A stretch of 58,400 nucleotides of DNA from Gemmatimonadota bacterium (GTDB lineage Bacteria > Gemmatimonadota > Gemmatimonadetes > Gemmatimonadales > Gemmatimonadaceae): assembly GCA_027622655.1 (NCBI GenBank), contig JAQBYI010000019.1, positions 1 to 58,400 of the forward strand. The letters run 5' to 3'. Position 1 is the first letter of the stretch. Every line of letters begins with the position of its first letter. Both the position numbers and the translations under genes were made by a program. Under the pieces are notes generated by a model that saw only the letters and a list, made by a program, of their open reading frames with translations, ran no database searches and was not told the origin of the DNA. Shown here one piece after another: positions 26,710 through 34,679 of the stretch.

Positions 26710-27882
26710 TCAGGATTTCGTCGCGGAATCGGGTCGGTGAACCAGAGCACGCCAAGCCAGGCGCAGGAGCCGTATTGGCGAATAAATCGGCCACAGATAG
26801 GCGGGCAATCGTATGGCCTGTGCATCGCGCGCTGTCGGCAGCGCCGCCGCAAGGATGAAATAGCGTATGCGCGCCAGCGGTCCGTCCAGCAGCGCCAAGT
26901 GCAACGCGGCATCGCGAGCTGGGCCCCTGTCGCCTGCCCTGAGCCGCGTCAGCACGTCGCCGGCGATACGCTGAGCCCGACGGTCGCGCCCGATGGCGGC
27001 GACAACTTCCGTCGGCAACGCAATGTCGAACAGTCGCCGCACGGCCTCGAGCCCAGCGAGCGTCGCTCGCACCCCCCGCGCGCGCCGGGCGGCCGCTATC
27101 AGTTCCGCGCCATCAACGCCACGCGCGACCAATGCGCCGGCGCACACCAGACTCTCCAGCCGGTCCCATCCGTGACGCGCGGCGTGCAGAGTCACCAGCA
27201 CAATCTGATCGGCGGCTGCGGGGACGTGCGTTTCCACGTCGCCAAGACGCACGGACGTCGCGCGCTCGATCACGCCGCCGACATCGGGACTCCACGGGAG
27301 CTTGCGGTCGCAGAACCGCCAGTGGAGCTCAACGGGGAGCGGCTCACCCGCGCGCGCAAGCGCGACGTGGCCCTGCCAGTCGTGCGCAACGCGTGATTCC
27401 GTCCACGAGCGTCGGTCGACTGGCACGTAACCTCCGTCGGCGAGCGCATCCGCGGCGCGCCGCAGGTCGTCCGGGGCGACGACGATGTCGAGGTCATCGC
27501 TCGTGCGCAGTCCTACGTTGCCGTATGCAGCGAGCGATAGTGCCGGACCCTTGTACGCCAATGCGGGCACACCCGCGCGCTCGAGCACGCGCATCGTGTC
27601 GGCCAGCTGTCGCGTTGCCGCAAGCGCGCTGACCGCGGCGCCACGGCCCGCCGCAGACAAGCGCGCCCGCTCCTGTGCCGGAACGCCAGTGACATTCACG
27701 TCGCCAAGCACGTCCGCCACCAGCGGCAGCATCGCGTGCGACTTGGCGATGTCCATCAACGCGTCCCAATCGCCATCGCCCCGACCGTACGCGAGCAAGT
27801 CGGGGGTGTCTCGCGGGCCGCCGACGACGCGGGCGACGACTGCCTTACCGCACGCGACTACAGCCCCGAAAGTGTCAGGCAC
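26710..27882 (-). CDS. Nucleotidyltransferase family protein of the lasso-peptide cluster (PF14907-like)
   Basis: The fold signature is ALAYKGPALSLAAYGNVGLRTSDDLDIVV, with the Asp pair expected for metal binding. It is followed by HVALARAGEPLPVELHWRF and DQIVLVTLHAARHGWDRLE, standard for uncharacterised nucleotidyltransferases of the NTP_transf_5 type. Such genes recur in phosphorylating lasso-peptide clusters. In the pseudomycoidin system the NTase is reported, as I recall, to add sugar to the phosphate group. The GTG start at 27882 overlaps the end of the kinase gene by 8 bp, so the two are coupled. The C-terminus is hydrophobic and aromatic (LPAYLWPIYSPIRLLRLAWRAL), possibly membrane-associating. 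Exact substrate is unknown. Confidence 0.85.
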   Translation of the reverse strand: MPDTFGAVVACGKAVVARVVGGPRDTPDLLAYGRGDGDWDALMDIAKSHAMLPLVADVLGDVNVTGVPAQERARLSAAGRGAAVSALAATRQLADTMRVLERAGVPALAYKGPALSLAAYGNVGLRTSDDLDIVVAPDDLRRAADALADGGYVPVDRRSWTESRVAHDWQGHVALARAGEPLPVELHWRFCDRKLPWSPDVGGVIERATSVRLGDVETHVPAAADQIVLVTLHAARHGWDRLESLVCAGALVARGVDGAELIAAARRARGVRATLAGLEAVRRLFDIALPTEVVAAIGRDRRAQRIAGDVLTRLRAGDRGPARDAALHLALLDGPLARIRYFILAAALPTARDAQAIRLPAYLWPIYSPIRLLRLAWRALVHRPDSATKS

Positions 27883-28987
27883 CGCGCGGCTCGCGCTCCG
27901 CGGCTGCCGCGGCCGCAATCGCCGTCGAAATCGCCGCCGGCATCGAGCCCAGCTTTCCCAGGCCGCGTGGCGCTGTGAATCGCACGACCGGCACGACCTC
28001 AAGCACCTGCGCCAGCTGCTGGAGCTCTTCCGAGCGGCGTTTGTCGTCGTGCAGGAAACTGGCCACCGTGTTCGTCACCAGCGCGCGGAACGCGGCGCTG
28101 CCGCGCAGGGGCTCGAAACGTGGCGCATCGACTAGTGGCGATCCCGCAGCCTGCGAAGCGCCAAGCACGCAGATGAGGGCAAGCGGAGCCTCGGCGGGAG
28201 CCGCTGGTCCACCAAGCAACACCGGATCCAGCACCCGTTTGCTCCACGTTTCCGAGAACGGCGGCACCAAATCCGGATCGCCAAGAAGCGTGCGCACGCC
28301 GTCATCCCACAAGCGGATCGCGCCAATCCCACGATGGGCGTGCCATTGACCGGAGCTATCACCGCCCTCCAACCTGATCGCGAGGACGTCGTCGGACAGC
28401 AACGCAGCACCTGCAGCCACGCACGCGGCCGCGATCGTCGACTTTCCGGCACCCACGGGTCCAACGAACGCGACTGCCCTGCCGTCCATCTCGACAGCAC
28501 TTGCGTGCAGCACGAGCGTCCTGCGGCATCGCAGCAGGAACGCCAGCACCGGCTCGAGAAGAAAGTGGGCCGCGTCGACGACGGTCAGCGGCGCGTCATA
28601 TTCGAGCCAGACTTCGTCGAACACGCTCGAAATCCAGAACGTCGCTCCCTCTGCGAACCGAATACGCAGGCCGAAACCGCTCGAAACCCATCCCGCGTCG
28701 CGGACGTTTACGTTCGCGTCTGCAGGGTCTGATTCTCGAAGGATGCGGTCCGGGTCGAGCGGCTCGGCATGCCAAGCCGGTCGGGCGCGCACGCGTGCAG
28801 TCACGTCGGGTTGGCCGCCAGAAGCGGCGGCCAGCTTCACTGGAAGGTCGCCGACGACCTGAAGCTTCAGTCCGTGAACGAGGTACGTTCGAATGGCACC
28901 GATCAGCCGCGCTCTCGGATCAGAACGCCGAGCGACGGGTGGACGGGGCTCCCTTCCCACCGTCAGCTTTGGCGTCGTTGGCCCCAT
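27875..28987 (-). CDS. HPr-kinase-like peptide kinase of the lasso cluster
   Basis: The N-terminal part (residues about 30-60, TYLVHGLKLQVVGDLPVKLA) matches the opening of HPr-kinase homologues in lasso clusters. The C-terminal half carries HASAVEMDGRAVAFVGPVGAGKSTIAAACVAAGA (Walker A at about 176-184) and LLSDDVLAI, the acidic block of HprK. Family members phosphorylate a Ser of the lasso precursor (paeninodin PadeC). The start is uncertain: ATG 28987 gives a 68-bp overlap with the precursor gene and GTG 28960 a 41-bp overlap. No start codon in the precursor-free segment keeps the conserved N-terminus. A chromosomal HprK role is unlikely because no PTS genes are present nearby. Confidence 0.87.
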   Translation of the reverse strand: MGPTTPKLTVGREPRPPVARRSDPRARLIGAIRTYLVHGLKLQVVGDLPVKLAAASGGQPDVTARVRARPAWHAEPLDPDRILRESDPADANVNVRDAGWVSSGFGLRIRFAEGATFWISSVFDEVWLEYDAPLTVVDAAHFLLEPVLAFLLRCRRTLVLHASAVEMDGRAVAFVGPVGAGKSTIAAACVAAGAALLSDDVLAIRLEGGDSSGQWHAHRGIGAIRLWDDGVRTLLGDPDLVPPFSETWSKRVLDPVLLGGPAAPAEAPLALICVLGASQAAGSPLVDAPRFEPLRGSAAFRALVTNTVASFLHDDKRRSEELQQLAQVLEVVPVVRFTAPRGLGKLGSMPAAISTAIAAAAAAEREPRGA

Positions 28988-29090
28988 TTGCGGTCACGGC
29001 AGCGAGCGAACCAAACACCAGCAACTGCGGCTCGACATAGGGCGCGCGTGCCGGCGGAATCACGGAATCAGGTGAGGACGGATCAGTCAT
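28920..29090 (-). CDS. Lasso-peptide precursor (56 residues)
   Basis: The ATG at 29090 follows a perfect GGAGGT. The leader contains the B1-recognition motif YxxP: YVEPQLLVFGSLAAVT at residues 18-33, with Thr33 as the usual leader-end threonine. If Thr33 is at position -2, the core is residues 35-56, beginning NGANDAKAD, and Asp43 is ring position 9. If the core starts at Gly36, Asp43 is position 8. Asp43 is the only acidic residue at an allowed distance. The tail after the ring ends STRRSAF, offering Ser/Thr for the neighbouring kinase and two Arg for a PRMT-like enzyme. Not recognisable as any known lasso peptide. It overlaps the kinase gene in another frame. Confidence 0.82.
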   Translation of the reverse strand: MTDPSSPDSVIPPARAPYVEPQLLVFGSLAAVTANGANDAKADGGKGAPSTRRSAF

Positions 29091-29197
29091 GATTGACAAG
29101 TACCTCCGGCTGCATCGGCGTGCCGTCACCGCTGCGAGAAATGGCGCCGCGAGCGACCTCGAGCGGCCCCGGCGCCTGAGTGAAACCAATCGCCCCG

Positions 29198-29213
29198 GTT
29201 GCATTTCTGCAAC
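29198..29213 (-). other. Small perfect hairpin upstream of the lasso precursor
   Basis: On the reverse strand GTTGCA and TGCAAC form a 6-bp stem around a GAAA tetraloop, about 110 nt before the precursor start in the 161-bp gap after the methyltransferase. It has no U-tract, so it may be an mRNA processing or attenuation element, or chance. The rest of the gap shows no further gene. Confidence 0.35.
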
Positions 29214-29251
29214 TGTCCGGCAAGAAACAGCCTCGGTCGACGTGACCCGAA

Positions 29252-30369
29252 TCACACATCAGCCGCGTCGGAAATTTCCGCGAAGCGCCTCGTCACCCAA
29301 GCCAGCGCTGCGGCGTCGTTTGCAAACAACCCGGGATGCAATCCGGCCATCTCCCGGGCGATATCGGCGAGCGAGCGAGCGCCATCGGCGAGGTTAACGA
29401 TCTCCCGAATGATGGCGAGCCGCTCAGGATCGGGGCGGTATCCCGCCTGCCGGTGCGCCAGATCACGGGGCGTCAACAGCAGCCCGCCGAGCGTTGACTG
29501 GCGCATCGTGATCGCCGCACGGCCCGGTGTTGCCGGGTGGATCACCGTGCCCCACGATATCACATATGAGCCCTCCACGAGACGCATGCGGAGCGTGCAT
29601 TCGATCGTGTCGCCCGGTGCTGATTGCTCGGTGACGTCGAGAATCCGACACTGTCGGCCAGGTCGGCGTCGAACCAGAGCGCGATCCCCTCGAGCGGTGC
29701 GGCGCGGTCGACCGCCCACGACACCGTCGCGTCAACGTCCGGCGACGTAATGGTGGCATAGTCGAGGATTGCGACCTGCGCTGGAGCAGCGCAGATAGCC
29801 GCCGAGTCGACACGATCGCCGTGGAGTCGCGACCGCGCCCGAGCGGCAAGCACCTGGCGGGAGACACCGTGTGGCGCCAACCCAAGAGCGAGTTCATCCT
29901 GCGCCCATTTTCGGGGTGCCGTGCACGGCGCCGCGTGGACGACGTCACGACGCGGAATCAGGCGTGCATCCGGCGCGAGCATCCGCTCGCGCACATTGAT
30001 CAGCGTCGGGATCGCGTCACCGAATAGCGGCAGGAGCCCCCGAACATCGCTCAGCAGGACCGTTCCCCGTTCCGGCAGGACGATCTGGTTGGCGTCGCCC
30101 CTAACGCAGCGCACGCGGTCGCCGCAGCCGTTCTCGCGAATCAGCTGCTCGGCGAGAACGATGGACGGATCAGATTCGATCGCGTACACCATCCGAGCCC
30201 CGGCGCGGGCGGCCGCGACGGCGAAGTATCCCACGCCAGTGCCGATCTCGACAACCACGTCCCCGGGTCGCACCACGCTCGCGATGGCGCTCAGGTATGC
30301 CGTCGTGCGAACCCGGTCGGCGAACATCCAGTCGTAGTCGGACGGAACGAATTCCGATGGCCGGCTCAT
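29252..30369 (-). pseudogene. PRMT-like SAM methyltransferase of the lasso cluster, frameshifted
   Basis: The ATG at 30369 overlaps the cyclase stop (ATGA). The N-terminal Rossmann domain has the SAM-binding motif VVVEIGTGVGYFAVAAARAGA, then VYAIESDPS and the PRMT/L11-methyltransferase-like block VLLSDVRGLLPLF. After about residue 240 (ALWFDADLADSVGF) the frame meets TGA at 29560. A second frame continues the same domain with APGDTIECTLRMRLVEGSYVISWGTV and runs to 29252. The switch lies within 29611-29640 and equals loss of one base. Restored length would be about 372 residues. The C-terminal part ends in a helical module (LADIAREMAGLHPGLFANDAAA). Restored, it could methylate the peptide, for example at the RR pair. 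As written it is probably inactive, or the base is a consensus error. Confidence 0.8.
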
Positions 30370-32123
30370 GCCGCCTCCAGGTCGCGAAGCCACCGATCGA
30401 GCGTCAGCGCCCGCCAGCCGGCCAGGACGGCCTCAGAATCGCCGGTGGCAAGCGTCTCGATGAGCCGCGCCGAATCGACAAACTCCTTCGTGTGTTCGGA
30501 CAGCGGCGGCACCGCGCCCGCGGTGCGCCGCCGCCACTTGGACGTGGCCAGCTCGAAATATCCGGGGACCGTCGTTTTCGGCCGCCGGATGACGTCGGCC
30601 GGCAGCTCGCTGGCAAACGCGCGGCGCATCAGGTGCTTGCGCTGGCACCACGGTACCGGCGGAATGGCAAACACGAACTCAAGCAGTCGCGAGTCGAGAA
30701 ACGGCCAGCGTATCTCGACGGGAGCGCCAGTAAACGCGCGGTCCCATCCCTGGTGCATCATCTGCCAGAGCGAGGAGGTGAGGCGTTGGTACGCCTCCGG
30801 TCGCGCCCGGTGCGTCACGGGCGGCTCGCCGATCTGGCATCCAGGGTGTCTCATCCATGTCGGCCGCGGCGCGCGACGCGGACGCCAGAAGCGCAGCCGA
30901 CGGGCCAGCCAGAACCCCAGGTACGGGTGGTGCCCACGCCGGATCGTGTCCGTGATCATCCACCACAGGACGGTGACGGGCGGGTACCGCCGCAGCATCG
31001 TGGCCATGCCCGGCGGGCTGAAGAGCGCGTCACCGTCCTCTCCAACCAGGACGACCGGCGCGCGTTTCCCGAGCAACGAGACGAACTCCGAGTTGGCCGC
31101 GTCTTCAAAGTCAAAACAGGGTTCTGGCGTGCGTCCACCCTCGCCCGGCAGAGGCACAACATCGAATTCACGCACTTCGTGCGCAATGCCGAGTCGTTGT
31201 GCCACGGCGGTCGCGAGGCGTGCTTCTTCCGGCGACTCCACTTCAGGCATTCGGGTCGTCTGGGCGTACACGAGGTGCTCAGGCGCCACCCGCCGCGCCG
31301 TCGCGGCCATGCTTGGCGAATCGAGTCCGCCGCTGAGCAGGATCGCCGTTGGGCCGGTCATGCGATCGCGCACGGCCTCGTCGAGCAAGGCGCGGTAGTG
31401 CTCGACGTAATCTGCCTCGCGTCGGTACTCGAGTGGCGAGGGGTCCGGCATCGTCCAATGGACATCCACCGATGCGGCATGCTGCCCGGGAAGCCGTCGC
31501 AGCATGGTCCCGGGCGGGAGGCGCGCAATCGCGGAAAACGTCGTCGTCGCCAGGTCGCGATTCCAGGTGATCTCAAGGAACGAGACCACGGCGCCCACGT
31601 TGAGGCCACCGGTCACGGCGGGGTGTGCGCGCACGGCGTCCAGTGTGTTGCTGACGCAGATTCCGCCCGGAATGGACGCGTAATAGAGCGGACGCACGCC
31701 GAGCCCGTCACGCGCGGCAACGAACGTACCGGTAGCGCCATCCCATAGTGCGAATGAGAAATCGCCGCGCAGCCGTTCCACCGCGGCGACACCCCACGCG
31801 GCGTAGGCGGCATGAACCAGCGCAAGATCGCCCGACTCCCCCGGCGCCGCCCGCTTCGCCAGAAGGGCTCCCGGTGTCTCGCGTATCGCTCGTCGCAGGT
31901 CGGCGCGGGCGTCGAGGCGCACGTCGCCCGTGACGATGACCTCCCCGAGCACGTGGATTGCCGGCGCGCGCCAGCCGGTGGACGCGCCGGCGCACGCGTA
32001 GCCGCTGGCCCGCTCGCTCACGGCCGAGGATGCGCCCGGAAGCCGGAGCGCTGCCACGCACGAAGTGGGAAGCGAAATCGTCGTATCGCCGCGGAACGAT
32101 GCCACGGCGGCGAACACACTCAT
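30366..32123 (-). CDS. Lasso-peptide isopeptide-forming cyclase (asparagine-synthase-like, C protein)
   Basis: A 585-residue AsnB homologue. The N-terminal glutaminase-like domain lacks the catalytic Cys2 (it begins MSVFAAVASFRG), as in lasso cyclases that do not use glutamine. GDFSFALWDGATGTFVAARDGLGVRPLYY follows. The C-terminal ATP-pyrophosphatase domain has the PP-loop AILLSGGLDSPSMAATA and VVLVGEDGDALFSPPG. The family reaction adenylates the ring Asp/Glu and joins it to the core N-terminus. Ends overlap both neighbours by 4 bp (restored B2 TGA/ATG and methyltransferase ATGA), supporting one operon. Confidence 0.93.
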   Translation of the reverse strand: MSVFAAVASFRGDTTISLPTSCVAALRLPGASSAVSERASGYACAGASTGWRAPAIHVLGEVIVTGDVRLDARADLRRAIRETPGALLAKRAAPGESGDLALVHAAYAAWGVAAVERLRGDFSFALWDGATGTFVAARDGLGVRPLYYASIPGGICVSNTLDAVRAHPAVTGGLNVGAVVSFLEITWNRDLATTTFSAIARLPPGTMLRRLPGQHAASVDVHWTMPDPSPLEYRREADYVEHYRALLDEAVRDRMTGPTAILLSGGLDSPSMAATARRVAPEHLVYAQTTRMPEVESPEEARLATAVAQRLGIAHEVREFDVVPLPGEGGRTPEPCFDFEDAANSEFVSLLGKRAPVVLVGEDGDALFSPPGMATMLRRYPPVTVLWWMITDTIRRGHHPYLGFWLARRLRFWRPRRAPRPTWMRHPGCQIGEPPVTHRARPEAYQRLTSSLWQMMHQGWDRAFTGAPVEIRWPFLDSRLLEFVFAIPPVPWCQRKHLMRRAFASELPADVIRRPKTTVPGYFELATSKWRRRTAGAVPPLSEHTKEFVDSARLIETLATGDSEAVLAGWRALTLDRWLRDLEAA

Positions 32124-32564
32124 GTCGCTGCGCCAATGCGGGTCAGCACCACGAACTGCGACAGGTCAAAATCGCCGGAATCTCCGGTGACATACGGTCG
32201 TCCCCGAGGACACCCATGCGTGCGCGTCGAGTCCGTTCGGCACCGCTTGGTCCTTGCGCACACCGAGGGTCAGTTCAGCCGGGTGGCCGCCCGCTCGGAG
32301 AAGCCGATATGCGACCACGGCCTGCGGGAGGCACCGGCTCCCGGGAACGGTGCGCGCGGCGCGACTGATCGCCCGTCGTACGGCAGCCGGAAAGCCGTCG
32401 CCTCGGCGCCGGCCGGCTGGTGCCGCCTCCAGCGCGCGTCGCAGCGACGGGAATCCCGAGATCGCGATTCGAATGCGCGCCGCCACGAGCAGCCCGATGG
32501 CCCGCACCGAAAGCGCCAGTTCGTCGCGGTCCAGCGCGAGCGCGCTACGCAGCCGGGGAAGCAT
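32120..32564 (-). pseudogene. Lasso-peptide B2 leader peptidase (transglutaminase-like), frameshifted near the C-terminus
   Basis: Begins MLPRLRSALALDRDELALSVRAI. The catalytic Cys block is PGSRCLPQAVVAYRLLRAGGHPAELTLGV and the His is in DAHAWVSSGTTV. In the written frame the protein then ends with unrelated CHRRFRRF and a TGA at 32166. Removing one T on the reverse strand near 32192 (GTATGTC) joins SSGTTV to VTGDSGDFDLSQFVVLTRIGAAT. That is the normal B2 ending, containing the expected catalytic Asp, and it places the stop at 32120 as an ATGA overlap with the cyclase. Restored length is 147 residues, typical. The gene is therefore either inactivated or affected by a sequencing error. Confidence 0.85.
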
Positions 32565-32847
32565 CGACCACCTCAATAAGCCCGCGTGCGGCGAGATCGC
32601 CGGCCAGCTTGATGAGGTCAGCCAGCGCACGCTCGCGCGTCACGTCAAACTCCGCTTCGAGCACCGCGGCGACCTCGCCGAGTGATCGTGGCTCCGCGAT
32701 GAGCGTCCAGATGCGCGCGCCGACGGAATCGAGACCGTAGTACACCGCATCCTTCATGCCGAGAATGACGACGTCGGACGCCACCGGCGCCGAGACCTGA
32801 TCTGCAGACACGACGATTCGGGTATGCTCGCTGAACTGGGGTGGCAT
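32545..32847 (-). CDS. Lasso-peptide B1 protein (PqqD-like RiPP recognition element)
   Basis: A 100-residue winged-helix PqqD-fold protein. Features: RIVVSADQVSAPVASDVVILGMKDAVYYGLDSVGARIWTLI, the standard opening with the YYGLDxVGxxIW signature, then a helix pair ending LIKLAGDLAARGLIEVV. In split-B lasso systems B1 binds the YxxP leader and presents it to B2. It is the first gene of the cluster and overlaps the B2 start by 20 bp. The ATG at 32847 is chosen over the TTG at 32850. It is divergent from the rpsF operon with about 200 bp between starts. Confidence 0.93.
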   Translation of the reverse strand: MPPQFSEHTRIVVSADQVSAPVASDVVILGMKDAVYYGLDSVGARIWTLIAEPRSLGEVAAVLEAEFDVTRERALADLIKLAGDLAARGLIEVVDASPAA

Positions 32848-33048: not shown

Positions 33049-33411
33049 TTGTCTCGTGAATACGAGGCGGTGTACATCTTCGACGCTGGACTCGAAGACG
33101 CCGCCATCAACGAAAAACTCGCCAGGCACCATGCACTGCTGAGCAGCGGGCAGGAAATCACGCTCGACCATTGGGGTCGCCGTCAGCTCGCGTACAAGAT
33201 TGGCGCCAAGGAGACGGGCTACTACGTGATCGCGCGCTTTCACGCCGAGCCGCCGACACTGCCCGAGTTCGAGCGCTCGCTCAAGCTCGACGAAAGCGTG
33301 GTGCGCTATCTGATTTCCGCACATCACAACGAGCTCGGCGCACCGCCGATGACCGAAGAACAACTCGCCGCCCGCGCCAAGACGGACGACGATGACGACG
33401 ACGAGGATTAA
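33049..33411 (+). CDS. rpsF: 30S ribosomal protein bS6
   Basis: Binds the central domain of 16S rRNA with bS18. It opens SREYEAVYIFDAGLEDAAINEKL and continues DHWGRRQLAYKIGAKETGYYVIARF, the S6 core. Residues SLKLDESVVRYLI form the last helix, followed by an acidic tail (DDDDDDED) that is variable in the family. The start is a TTG at 33049, chosen because AAAGGAGGA lies 8 bp upstream and no ATG/GTG is available. rpsR starts 3 bp after its stop, and ssb, often located between them, is missing. Confidence 0.95.
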   Translation: MSREYEAVYIFDAGLEDAAINEKLARHHALLSSGQEITLDHWGRRQLAYKIGAKETGYYVIARFHAEPPTLPEFERSLKLDESVVRYLISAHHNELGAPPMTEEQLAARAKTDDDDDDED

Positions 33412-33414
33412 CCC

Positions 33415-33636
33415 ATGCGCCGACAGAAGAAGACCTGCCCGATCACCGAAGCCGGCATTCGCTACGTGGATTACAAGGACGAACGATTCCTGGCCCGGTT
33501 CATCACCGACAACGGCAAAATCCTGCCAAGCCGGCTCTCGGGCGTTGACGCCCGGCACCAGCGTCAGCTGGCGTCAGCGATCAAGAAGGCGCGCTACCTG
33601 GCGCTGCTGCCGTACACCCGCGGCCACCAGCCGTAG
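33415..33636 (+). CDS. rpsR: 30S ribosomal protein bS18
   Basis: A 73-residue basic protein with the S18 core: [59 protein letters not shown]. The single N-terminal Cys (KKTCPI) is a remnant of the C+ form. It forms a heterodimer with bS6 in the 30S platform. It is translated directly after rpsF and followed 5 bp later by the DUF2232 gene. Confidence 0.97.
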
Positions 33637-33641
33637 GCCCG

Positions 33642-34679
33642 GTGTCGGCCACAACCGCTGAGCCGATCGAGATCACGGTCCTGCGCGAGCAGGGCTGGGG
33701 TCGCGTCGTGTTCGCGGCGATCTGCTTTCTCCTTGTCCCGCTCACCCCGCTCTTCCGCGTGCTGCTCCCGACGGAGCAGACAGCACTCCTCATGGCACCG
33801 GCTCTTGCAGGCCTCGCCGTAGCCGGATGGATTTCGGGTGGCCGCGCGGCTCTGGCCATCGTGTGGGTCGCTGTGGCCACGTGGTCGGTGGTGCAGCTGT
33901 CGGGCGGTGGCCTGTTCTCGCTGATGCAGGGCGGATGGGCGGTGCTCGTCACGGCGTCGTTTGGCGCGGTGGTCGTGGTTCGTCGCAATGCAGCGGCCCA
34001 CTTTCTGCCGCGCGCGCTGGCGGCGATCGCGCTTTCAATGGGGCTGGCGATAACGCTGACGGTTGTCGTACCAGGTGGTCCGACACGAGTCGCCGACGGG
34101 GTCGCCGCGGAAGCGGGTCGGCGCGCGGAGGAATCACGCGCGAGCTGGCGCTTGGTCACGGGATCTCCGGAGTGGAAGGAGTTCGTGGCAGAGAACGCAG
34201 CCGCCGGCGAAATGGCCGAAATGGTCGATGCTCAACTCGGCGCACTCCCAGTAACGAGCCGGGTGCTCTTTCCCTCGCTCGCTGCTCTCGAGGCGCTGGC
34301 GGCGCTGGCGCTTGCGTGGGCGCTGTATCACCGGCTTGGACGGGCACGGCTCGGACTGCCGCTCACGGCCATTCGTGATTTCCGGTTCAACGATCACATG
34401 GTTTGGGGCGTGATTGCCGGACTGGCGATGGTGTTGATTCCCGGCCTCACGCTGGTGCGCACTATCGGCGCGAACTTGCTGATGTTCTTCGGCGCGCTGT
34501 ACACCATTCGCGGCGTCGGAGTGTTTTTGTGGATGGCTTCGCCTGGTCGGTTGTCCACGGCGCTGCTGGTAGTCGTGTCACTGCTGTTTTGGAACGTGCT
34601 GGGCGTGTTGGCGCTGGGGCTGGGTATCGGTGATACCTGGCTTGACTGGCGTTCCCGCGCACGGCCAAAGAAATCCTGA
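33642..34679 (+). CDS. DUF2232 (YybS-like) membrane protein
   Basis: Multi-pass membrane protein (345 residues) with at least seven hydrophobic segments, for example VVFAAICFLLVPLTPLF, AALAIVWVAVATWSVV, ALAAIALSMGLAITLTVVV and LLVVVSLLFWNVLGVLALGLG. A central soluble loop (about 140-200) and the pattern LPLTAIRDFRFNDHMVWGVIAG followed by NLLMFFGALYTIRGVGVFLW match the YybS/DUF2232 family. That family typically lies between rpsR and rplI in this gene order. Function is unknown. The GTG start is 5 bp after the rpsR stop. Confidence 0.85.
   Translation: MSATTAEPIEITVLREQGWGRVVFAAICFLLVPLTPLFRVLLPTEQTALLMAPALAGLAVAGWISGGRAALAIVWVAVATWSVVQLSGGGLFSLMQGGWAVLVTASFGAVVVVRRNAAAHFLPRALAAIALSMGLAITLTVVVPGGPTRVADGVAAEAGRRAEESRASWRLVTGSPEWKEFVAENAAAGEMAEMVDAQLGALPVTSRVLFPSLAALEALAALALAWALYHRLGRARLGLPLTAIRDFRFNDHMVWGVIAGLAMVLIPGLTLVRTIGANLLMFFGALYTIRGVGVFLWMASPGRLSTALLVVVSLLFWNVLGVLALGLGIGDTWLDWRSRARPKKS

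Follow-up and report, generated by a model that had tools for sequence, protein, structure and literature searches.

At positions 26710-32847 of the window (the whole 58,400-nucleotide stretch of Gemmatimonadota DNA analysed here), the minus strand carries a lasso-type cluster flanked by ychF and rpsF. The seven genes listed in the initial annotation, as well as their order and common strand, were confirmed, and so were the family assignments, with Pfam and NCBIfam profiles. In this order, they encode B1, a PqqD-like leader-binding protein (RRE; 32545-32847, ATG at 32847, PF05402 E 5.1e-15), the leader peptidase B2, from a frame-shifted gene (32120-32564; PF13471 E 3.3e-20, NF033537), the AsnB-like macrolactam cyclase C of 585 aa (30366-32123; PF00733 E 2.6e-28, with a GATase domain), a PRMT-fold methyltransferase, from a broken gene (29252-30369, the two ORFs P0006 and P0007, aligned with 11 intact relatives), a precursor with a YxxP leader that translates as MTDPSSPDSVIPPARAPYVEPQLLVFGSLAAVT-A-NGANDAKADGGKGAPSTRRSAF (28920-29090) and matches in leader and core 41 other precursors of the clade described below, an HPr-kinase-like kinase (27875-28987, with an uncertain start, probably within 28987-28897; TIGR04352 E 1.4e-11, PF07475 E 0.0018, alignment) and an NTP_transf_5 nucleotidyltransferase with a putative PsmN-like role (26710-28002; PF14907 E 3.6e-41, 141.8 bits vs a cut-off of 31.2). 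Overlapping ends had been described throughout; this holds for B1/B2 and for C/methyltransferase, but the ATG of C overlaps only the stop of the B2 frame as it would be without the shift.

B1, B2 (frame-shifted) and C are encoded together in the window, and the genome has one good B2, located here only. The expected placement of these proteins in lasso families was fully borne out for B2, which scores above the NF033537 cut-off (66.9 bits, cut-off 33); B1 and C match the lasso PqqD (NF033536, E 1.3e-12) and lasso cyclase (NF033535, E 2e-49) profiles below their cut-offs, far below in the case of C. The GATase domain of C lacks Cys2, and the SGGLDS and GEDGD motifs are intact. The TIGR04352 (HprK-related) match of the kinase is also below cut-off, yet its alignment evidences a His-Lys-Asp-Asp motif kept in the window and in the relatives (HASAV, GAGKST, SDD), the residues reported for paeninodin-type kinases (PMC9266682). 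The cluster shares with the paeninodin/pseudomycoidin type both this kinase and a nucleotidyltransferase, the latter assigned by its PF14907 match. Altogether, profile matches and fold support each part of the proposed set, that is, a lasso-type RiPP cluster (with B1, C and the kinase under the curated lasso cut-offs), the kinase and nucleotidyltransferase pair and a PRMT-like methyltransferase.

All genes had been taken as open; however, neither B2 nor the methyltransferase is a single open frame in the window. The first B2 frame runs from the ATG at 32564 to a stop at 32166 and keeps the Cys and the His (HAWV), and the second, ending at 32120, carries the VTGD block and the conserved C-terminus. 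The lesion, at about 32211-32191 and past the catalytic HAWV, is a net gain of 1 nt (the distance from the His to the Asp of VTGD is 40 nt in the window vs 39 in the relatives), and due to this extra nucleotide the true frame stops early at 32166; the block VTGDSGDFDLSQFVVL sits in the other frame, the stop of which overlaps the C start codon. The window copy encodes no intact leader peptidase. In the methyltransferase, the N-terminal frame extends from the ATG at 30369 to about 29630, ending in WFDADLADSVGFSTSP, and the C-terminal frame resumes at APGDTIECTLRMR and runs on to 29252. Between these two segments the relatives have 20 residues (e.g., AAPRALYGQAFFPFANALAV) and the window 8 nt, placing near 29635-29615, in the beta-barrel, a lesion that combines a net loss of ~52 nt with a frame shift and takes out the THW-equivalent strand. 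The 11 methyltransferases first compared (11/11) are single frames, and both genes are open in every readable relative.

Over window positions 931-43311 (~42 kb, compared with congeners) no other broken gene was found; an apparent two-frame match at 33407-34670 was discarded, as it corresponds to rpsR and then the next gene, sharing one stop-free frame in L038. Since no other frame break occurs in this region, two independent sequencing errors within the 6-kb cluster seem unlikely: the cluster represents about 6.1 of the 42 kb, and by length both lesions would fall inside it by chance with a probability of ~0.02. Based on these lesions, the window copy is probably non-functional, either decaying here or assembled wrongly twice. 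An intact cluster, active in the organism, with both breaks being assembly or sequencing errors, is a possibility to be taken seriously, even if it falls short of an even chance: the genome is a draft of 115 contigs, B2 has a net excess of just one base, conserved sequence continues in frames downstream of both lesions with the former C/B2 ATGA overlap still in place, and the motifs of C, kinase and nucleotidyltransferase are preserved. On the other hand, the breaks are confined to the cluster, the methyltransferase lesion is a net deletion of 52 nt rather than a single-base error and the estimated genome completeness is 99.67%. With B2 and the methyltransferase broken, the claim that this copy makes a modified lasso peptide is left without support, and the window copy would be a poor choice for expression.

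The nature of the methyltransferase was established on intact relatives, with which the N-terminal half of the window protein aligns. With a profile of 11 relatives, the top PDB matches of METHYLTRANSFERASE were all PRMTs (PRMT6, E 2.7e-39), and the fold was also supported from a single sequence. The L062 protein, modelled with AlphaFold2 (mean pLDDT 84.8), matched PRMT6 in Foldseek (1.1e-26) and PRMT2 in a structure search (Z 33.9 over 311 residues), so that, on sequence and model, the enzyme has a PRMT scaffold, including the SAM domain and the beta-barrel. As in the type I PRMTs (PRMT1/2/6, CARM1), a Rossmann SAM domain is followed by this barrel, with about 310 residues superposed; unlike in these enzymes, the two glutamates of the double-E loop and the THW loop are not conserved. 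Asp takes the place of the first Glu in nearly all members, only L034 and L165 have the second, and THW is replaced by YG/HG/YD (the segment is deleted in the window). Many members also have an extra C-terminal three-helix segment (window 29252-29470; L062 residues 336-391), absent from several congeners; its interpretation as a B1-like leader-binding domain was not supported (hhalign probability 2.7%). LihM, a methyltransferase of other lasso clusters, is PIMT-related; the enzyme described here differs from it by the PRMT fold with a C-terminal beta-barrel, and its match to PF01135 (PCMT/PIMT, E 0.026) lies below cut-off, PRMT profiles being far stronger. A search of plasmids produced only matches of <45% identity and coverage <=74% in Streptomyces and proteobacteria, and a degenerate-pattern scan of public genomes a single, spurious one in Desulfosporosinus.

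B2 is present in 105 of the 298 genomes sampled in the phylum, and 100 B2 loci were fetched and their genes compared. In the synteny comparison, congeners as well as further genera of this family have the full set plus methyltransferase in intact form, in a gene order that changes. By profile search, 26/179 genomes of the family have a close homolog of the methyltransferase, and homologs are additionally found at loci of other families. In a tree of 73 cyclases, all loci that have the methyltransferase and a usable cyclase sequence (21/21) group in one clade of 25 members (SH-aLRT 100), and methyltransferase presence requires 5 label changes, shuffled labels giving 18.5. Four clade members have no methyltransferase at the locus: L036 is cut by a contig end, and the gene of that genome is at L173, on a different contig; in L071, L078 and L086 the gene has apparently been lost. 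The simplest history suggested by these sequences would be one gain followed by few losses. Several clusters occupy the same ychF-rpsF slot and, on this basis, inheritance of the cluster looks vertical. B2, with the Cys/His and a HAWVE block, is found in most of the clade, some members having no B2 in the cluster. In the clusters L160-L164 (genus g2) and L174-L176 (another family), kinase and methyltransferase are present and B2 was not detected; these carry the cyclase, except the truncated L175.

The leader of the window precursor (29090-28920) matches the family pattern YxxPxLxxxGSLxxxT, and the 42 clade precursors, the presence of which had been anticipated for homologous clusters, have a leader of the form [YW]xxPxLxxxG...T, and most of them have an Asp-Gly some 9-11 residues past the Thr-x. 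Asn1 is the predicted first residue of the window core, NGANDAKADGGKGAPSTRRSAF, and Asp9 the predicted ring acceptor (T-A-N1...D9), in line with the YxxPxLxxxG leader, the Thr at -2 and the Asp/Glu at core positions 7-9. Lasso peptide rings usually have 7-9 residues. The Asp is at position 9 in the window and in many relatives and at 10-11 in several congeners (L034, L035, L037, L038 and L173, counted after Thr-x), which would mean rings above the usual size or a different cleavage site. At the opposite end, 42/42 clade precursors terminate in [KR][ST]x0-2 vs 11/35 candidates outside the clade; the Fisher p of 8e-12 overstates the case, since roughly the first dozen precursors had suggested the motif that was then tested on the remainder, the sequences are related to one another and some candidates on the outside list are false. 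In the window, this end reads ...RRSAF, with Ser-Ala-Phe last rather than a C-terminal Ser as kinase acceptor. The motif is kept in L071, L078 and L086, where the methyltransferase is missing, and some kinase-bearing clusters outside the clade likewise end in [KR][ST]; for both reasons it fits the kinase better and is most likely the signature of its acceptor site.

The precursors also bear on the target of the methyltransferase. PRMT-like methylation of the conserved C-terminal Arg/Lys would be in keeping with the fold and with the basic residue that precedes the Ser/Thr in 42/42 clade precursors; nevertheless, it is rather unlikely, considering that nearly all members lack the second double-E Glu and have Asp for the first, that THW is replaced and that the same motif is kept in the three methyltransferase-less sister clusters and found outside the clade. 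Persistence of the motif without the enzyme is the reason why an arginine target was not adopted as the best reading, and arginine as methyl acceptor is unproven because the second catalytic Glu and THW are not conserved. Two further features were observed among the precursors. L062:11898-12185 and L169:1067-1522 have two Cys in the core (CAKGYNDGTATGC), suggesting a disulfide, and L082:7394-8205 encodes three precursors in tandem with near-identical cores and KRRT/RRRT ends. Apparent fusions of precursors to B1 or kinase (L160, L161, L162, L164) were dismissed as merely long stop-free frames in high-GC DNA.

The observed gene content, clade membership, methyltransferase fold, precursor motifs and lesions are best accommodated by a reading to which we assign a probability of about 0.72, namely, a vertically inherited, probably Gemmatimonadaceae, lasso-type clade in which the paeninodin/pseudomycoidin set was joined by a PRMT-fold methyltransferase, the window copy being probably decaying or misassembled. 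From what is known of these families we infer a pathway in which B1 would bind the YxxP leader, the kinase would phosphorylate the Ser/Thr beside the conserved C-terminal basic residue, the nucleotidyltransferase would attach a group, putatively a sugar, to this phosphate and the methyltransferase would methylate the core at an unspecified residue; B2 would then cleave after Thr-x and C would close the ring between residue 1 and the Asp of the Asp-Gly motif, yielding a presumably threaded product. The monoisotopic masses calculated for the window core, were it produced, are 2129.04 as a lasso, 2209.00 with a phosphate and 2223.02 with both phosphate and methyl.

Alternatively, the product could be another ATP-activated, phosphorylated and methylated peptide rather than a threaded lasso, the AsnB-like enzyme performing a different amide chemistry at least in the B2-less members. 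The five genus-g2 clusters and L174-L176, mostly with a cyclase and without B2 in the cluster, are consistent with such a product, as are genome G206, where B2 is found nowhere above cut-off, the variable ring-size spacing and the low NF033535 score of the cyclase. We consider it unlikely, however, in view of the B2 with Cys/His and HAWVE block in most of the clade and of precursors that keep the YxxP leader, the Thr at -2 and the downstream Asp; moreover, some genomes with B2-less clusters have a B2 in another lasso cluster, and these genomes are incomplete drafts. Still less probable is a reading in which peptides that are phosphorylated, methylated and made from lasso-like precursors form a class of their own, defined by the PRMT-fold enzyme; B2, absent from several clusters and broken in the window, would be dispensable in it, and the cyclase would accept a precursor that is uncut or cut in another way.

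Under the preferred lasso-type reading, the closest known systems are the psm and pade clusters, with which the cluster shares the split B1/B2, the AsnB-like C, the H-K-D-D HPr-kinase homolog, the nucleotidyltransferase and precursors with a hydroxyl residue at or near the C-terminus (PMC9266682, PMC8498205). It differs from them in the added PRMT-fold methyltransferase, the phylum and the Arg/Lys that precedes a Ser/Thr often not final; in addition, no transporter gene was found among the genes examined here. Tailoring reported for lasso peptides includes phosphorylation (PadeK), phosphoglycosylation (PsmK/PsmN), C-terminal methyl esterification (StspM) and aspartimide formation (LihM) (PMC9266682, PMC8498205, PMC13352647). 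As in the lassomycin/StspM clusters, the lasso cluster would include a SAM methyltransferase that modifies the peptide, but the description of StspM is that of an O-methyltransferase, with a model based on mitomycin-7-O-methyltransferase, instead of a PRMT fold, and a kinase/nucleotidyltransferase pair is not mentioned for it (PMC9266682). Lihuanodin and cellulonodin-2 (LihM) likewise combine a methyltransferase with a lasso containing a ring Asp (PMC13352647). An Asn at ring position 1 was first demonstrated in metanodin and, like its Thr at -2, has a predicted counterpart in the window (core NGANDAKAD); the metanodin cluster, in contrast, is gammaproteobacterial and a kinase is not mentioned for it (PMC12670498).

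Searches for lasso peptides together with PRMT, arginine methyltransferase or Gemmatimonas returned nothing relevant in the literature searched, where coverage of subscription papers and preprints is thin, and the set of methyltransferase, kinase and nucleotidyltransferase, already thought to be undescribed, was not found there; its novelty is provisional in this respect. Judging from the sequences, the paeninodin/pseudomycoidin-type set plus methyltransferase is a genuine new combination, well documented in the relatives, and to our knowledge and in this literature the PRMT fold is new among methyltransferases of lasso tailoring. With a defined clade, dozens of precursors become available for experiments, and one may ask which part of a phosphopeptide is methylated by a PRMT scaffold that lacks the arginine-binding Glu pair. 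Apart from these clusters, a PRMT-like methyltransferase adjoins an HprK-like kinase, without a cyclase, at L177:9031-11336 and L178:8173-10398, the latter with a PqqD-like ORF upstream of the pair, and both pairs possibly belong to a different peptide system.
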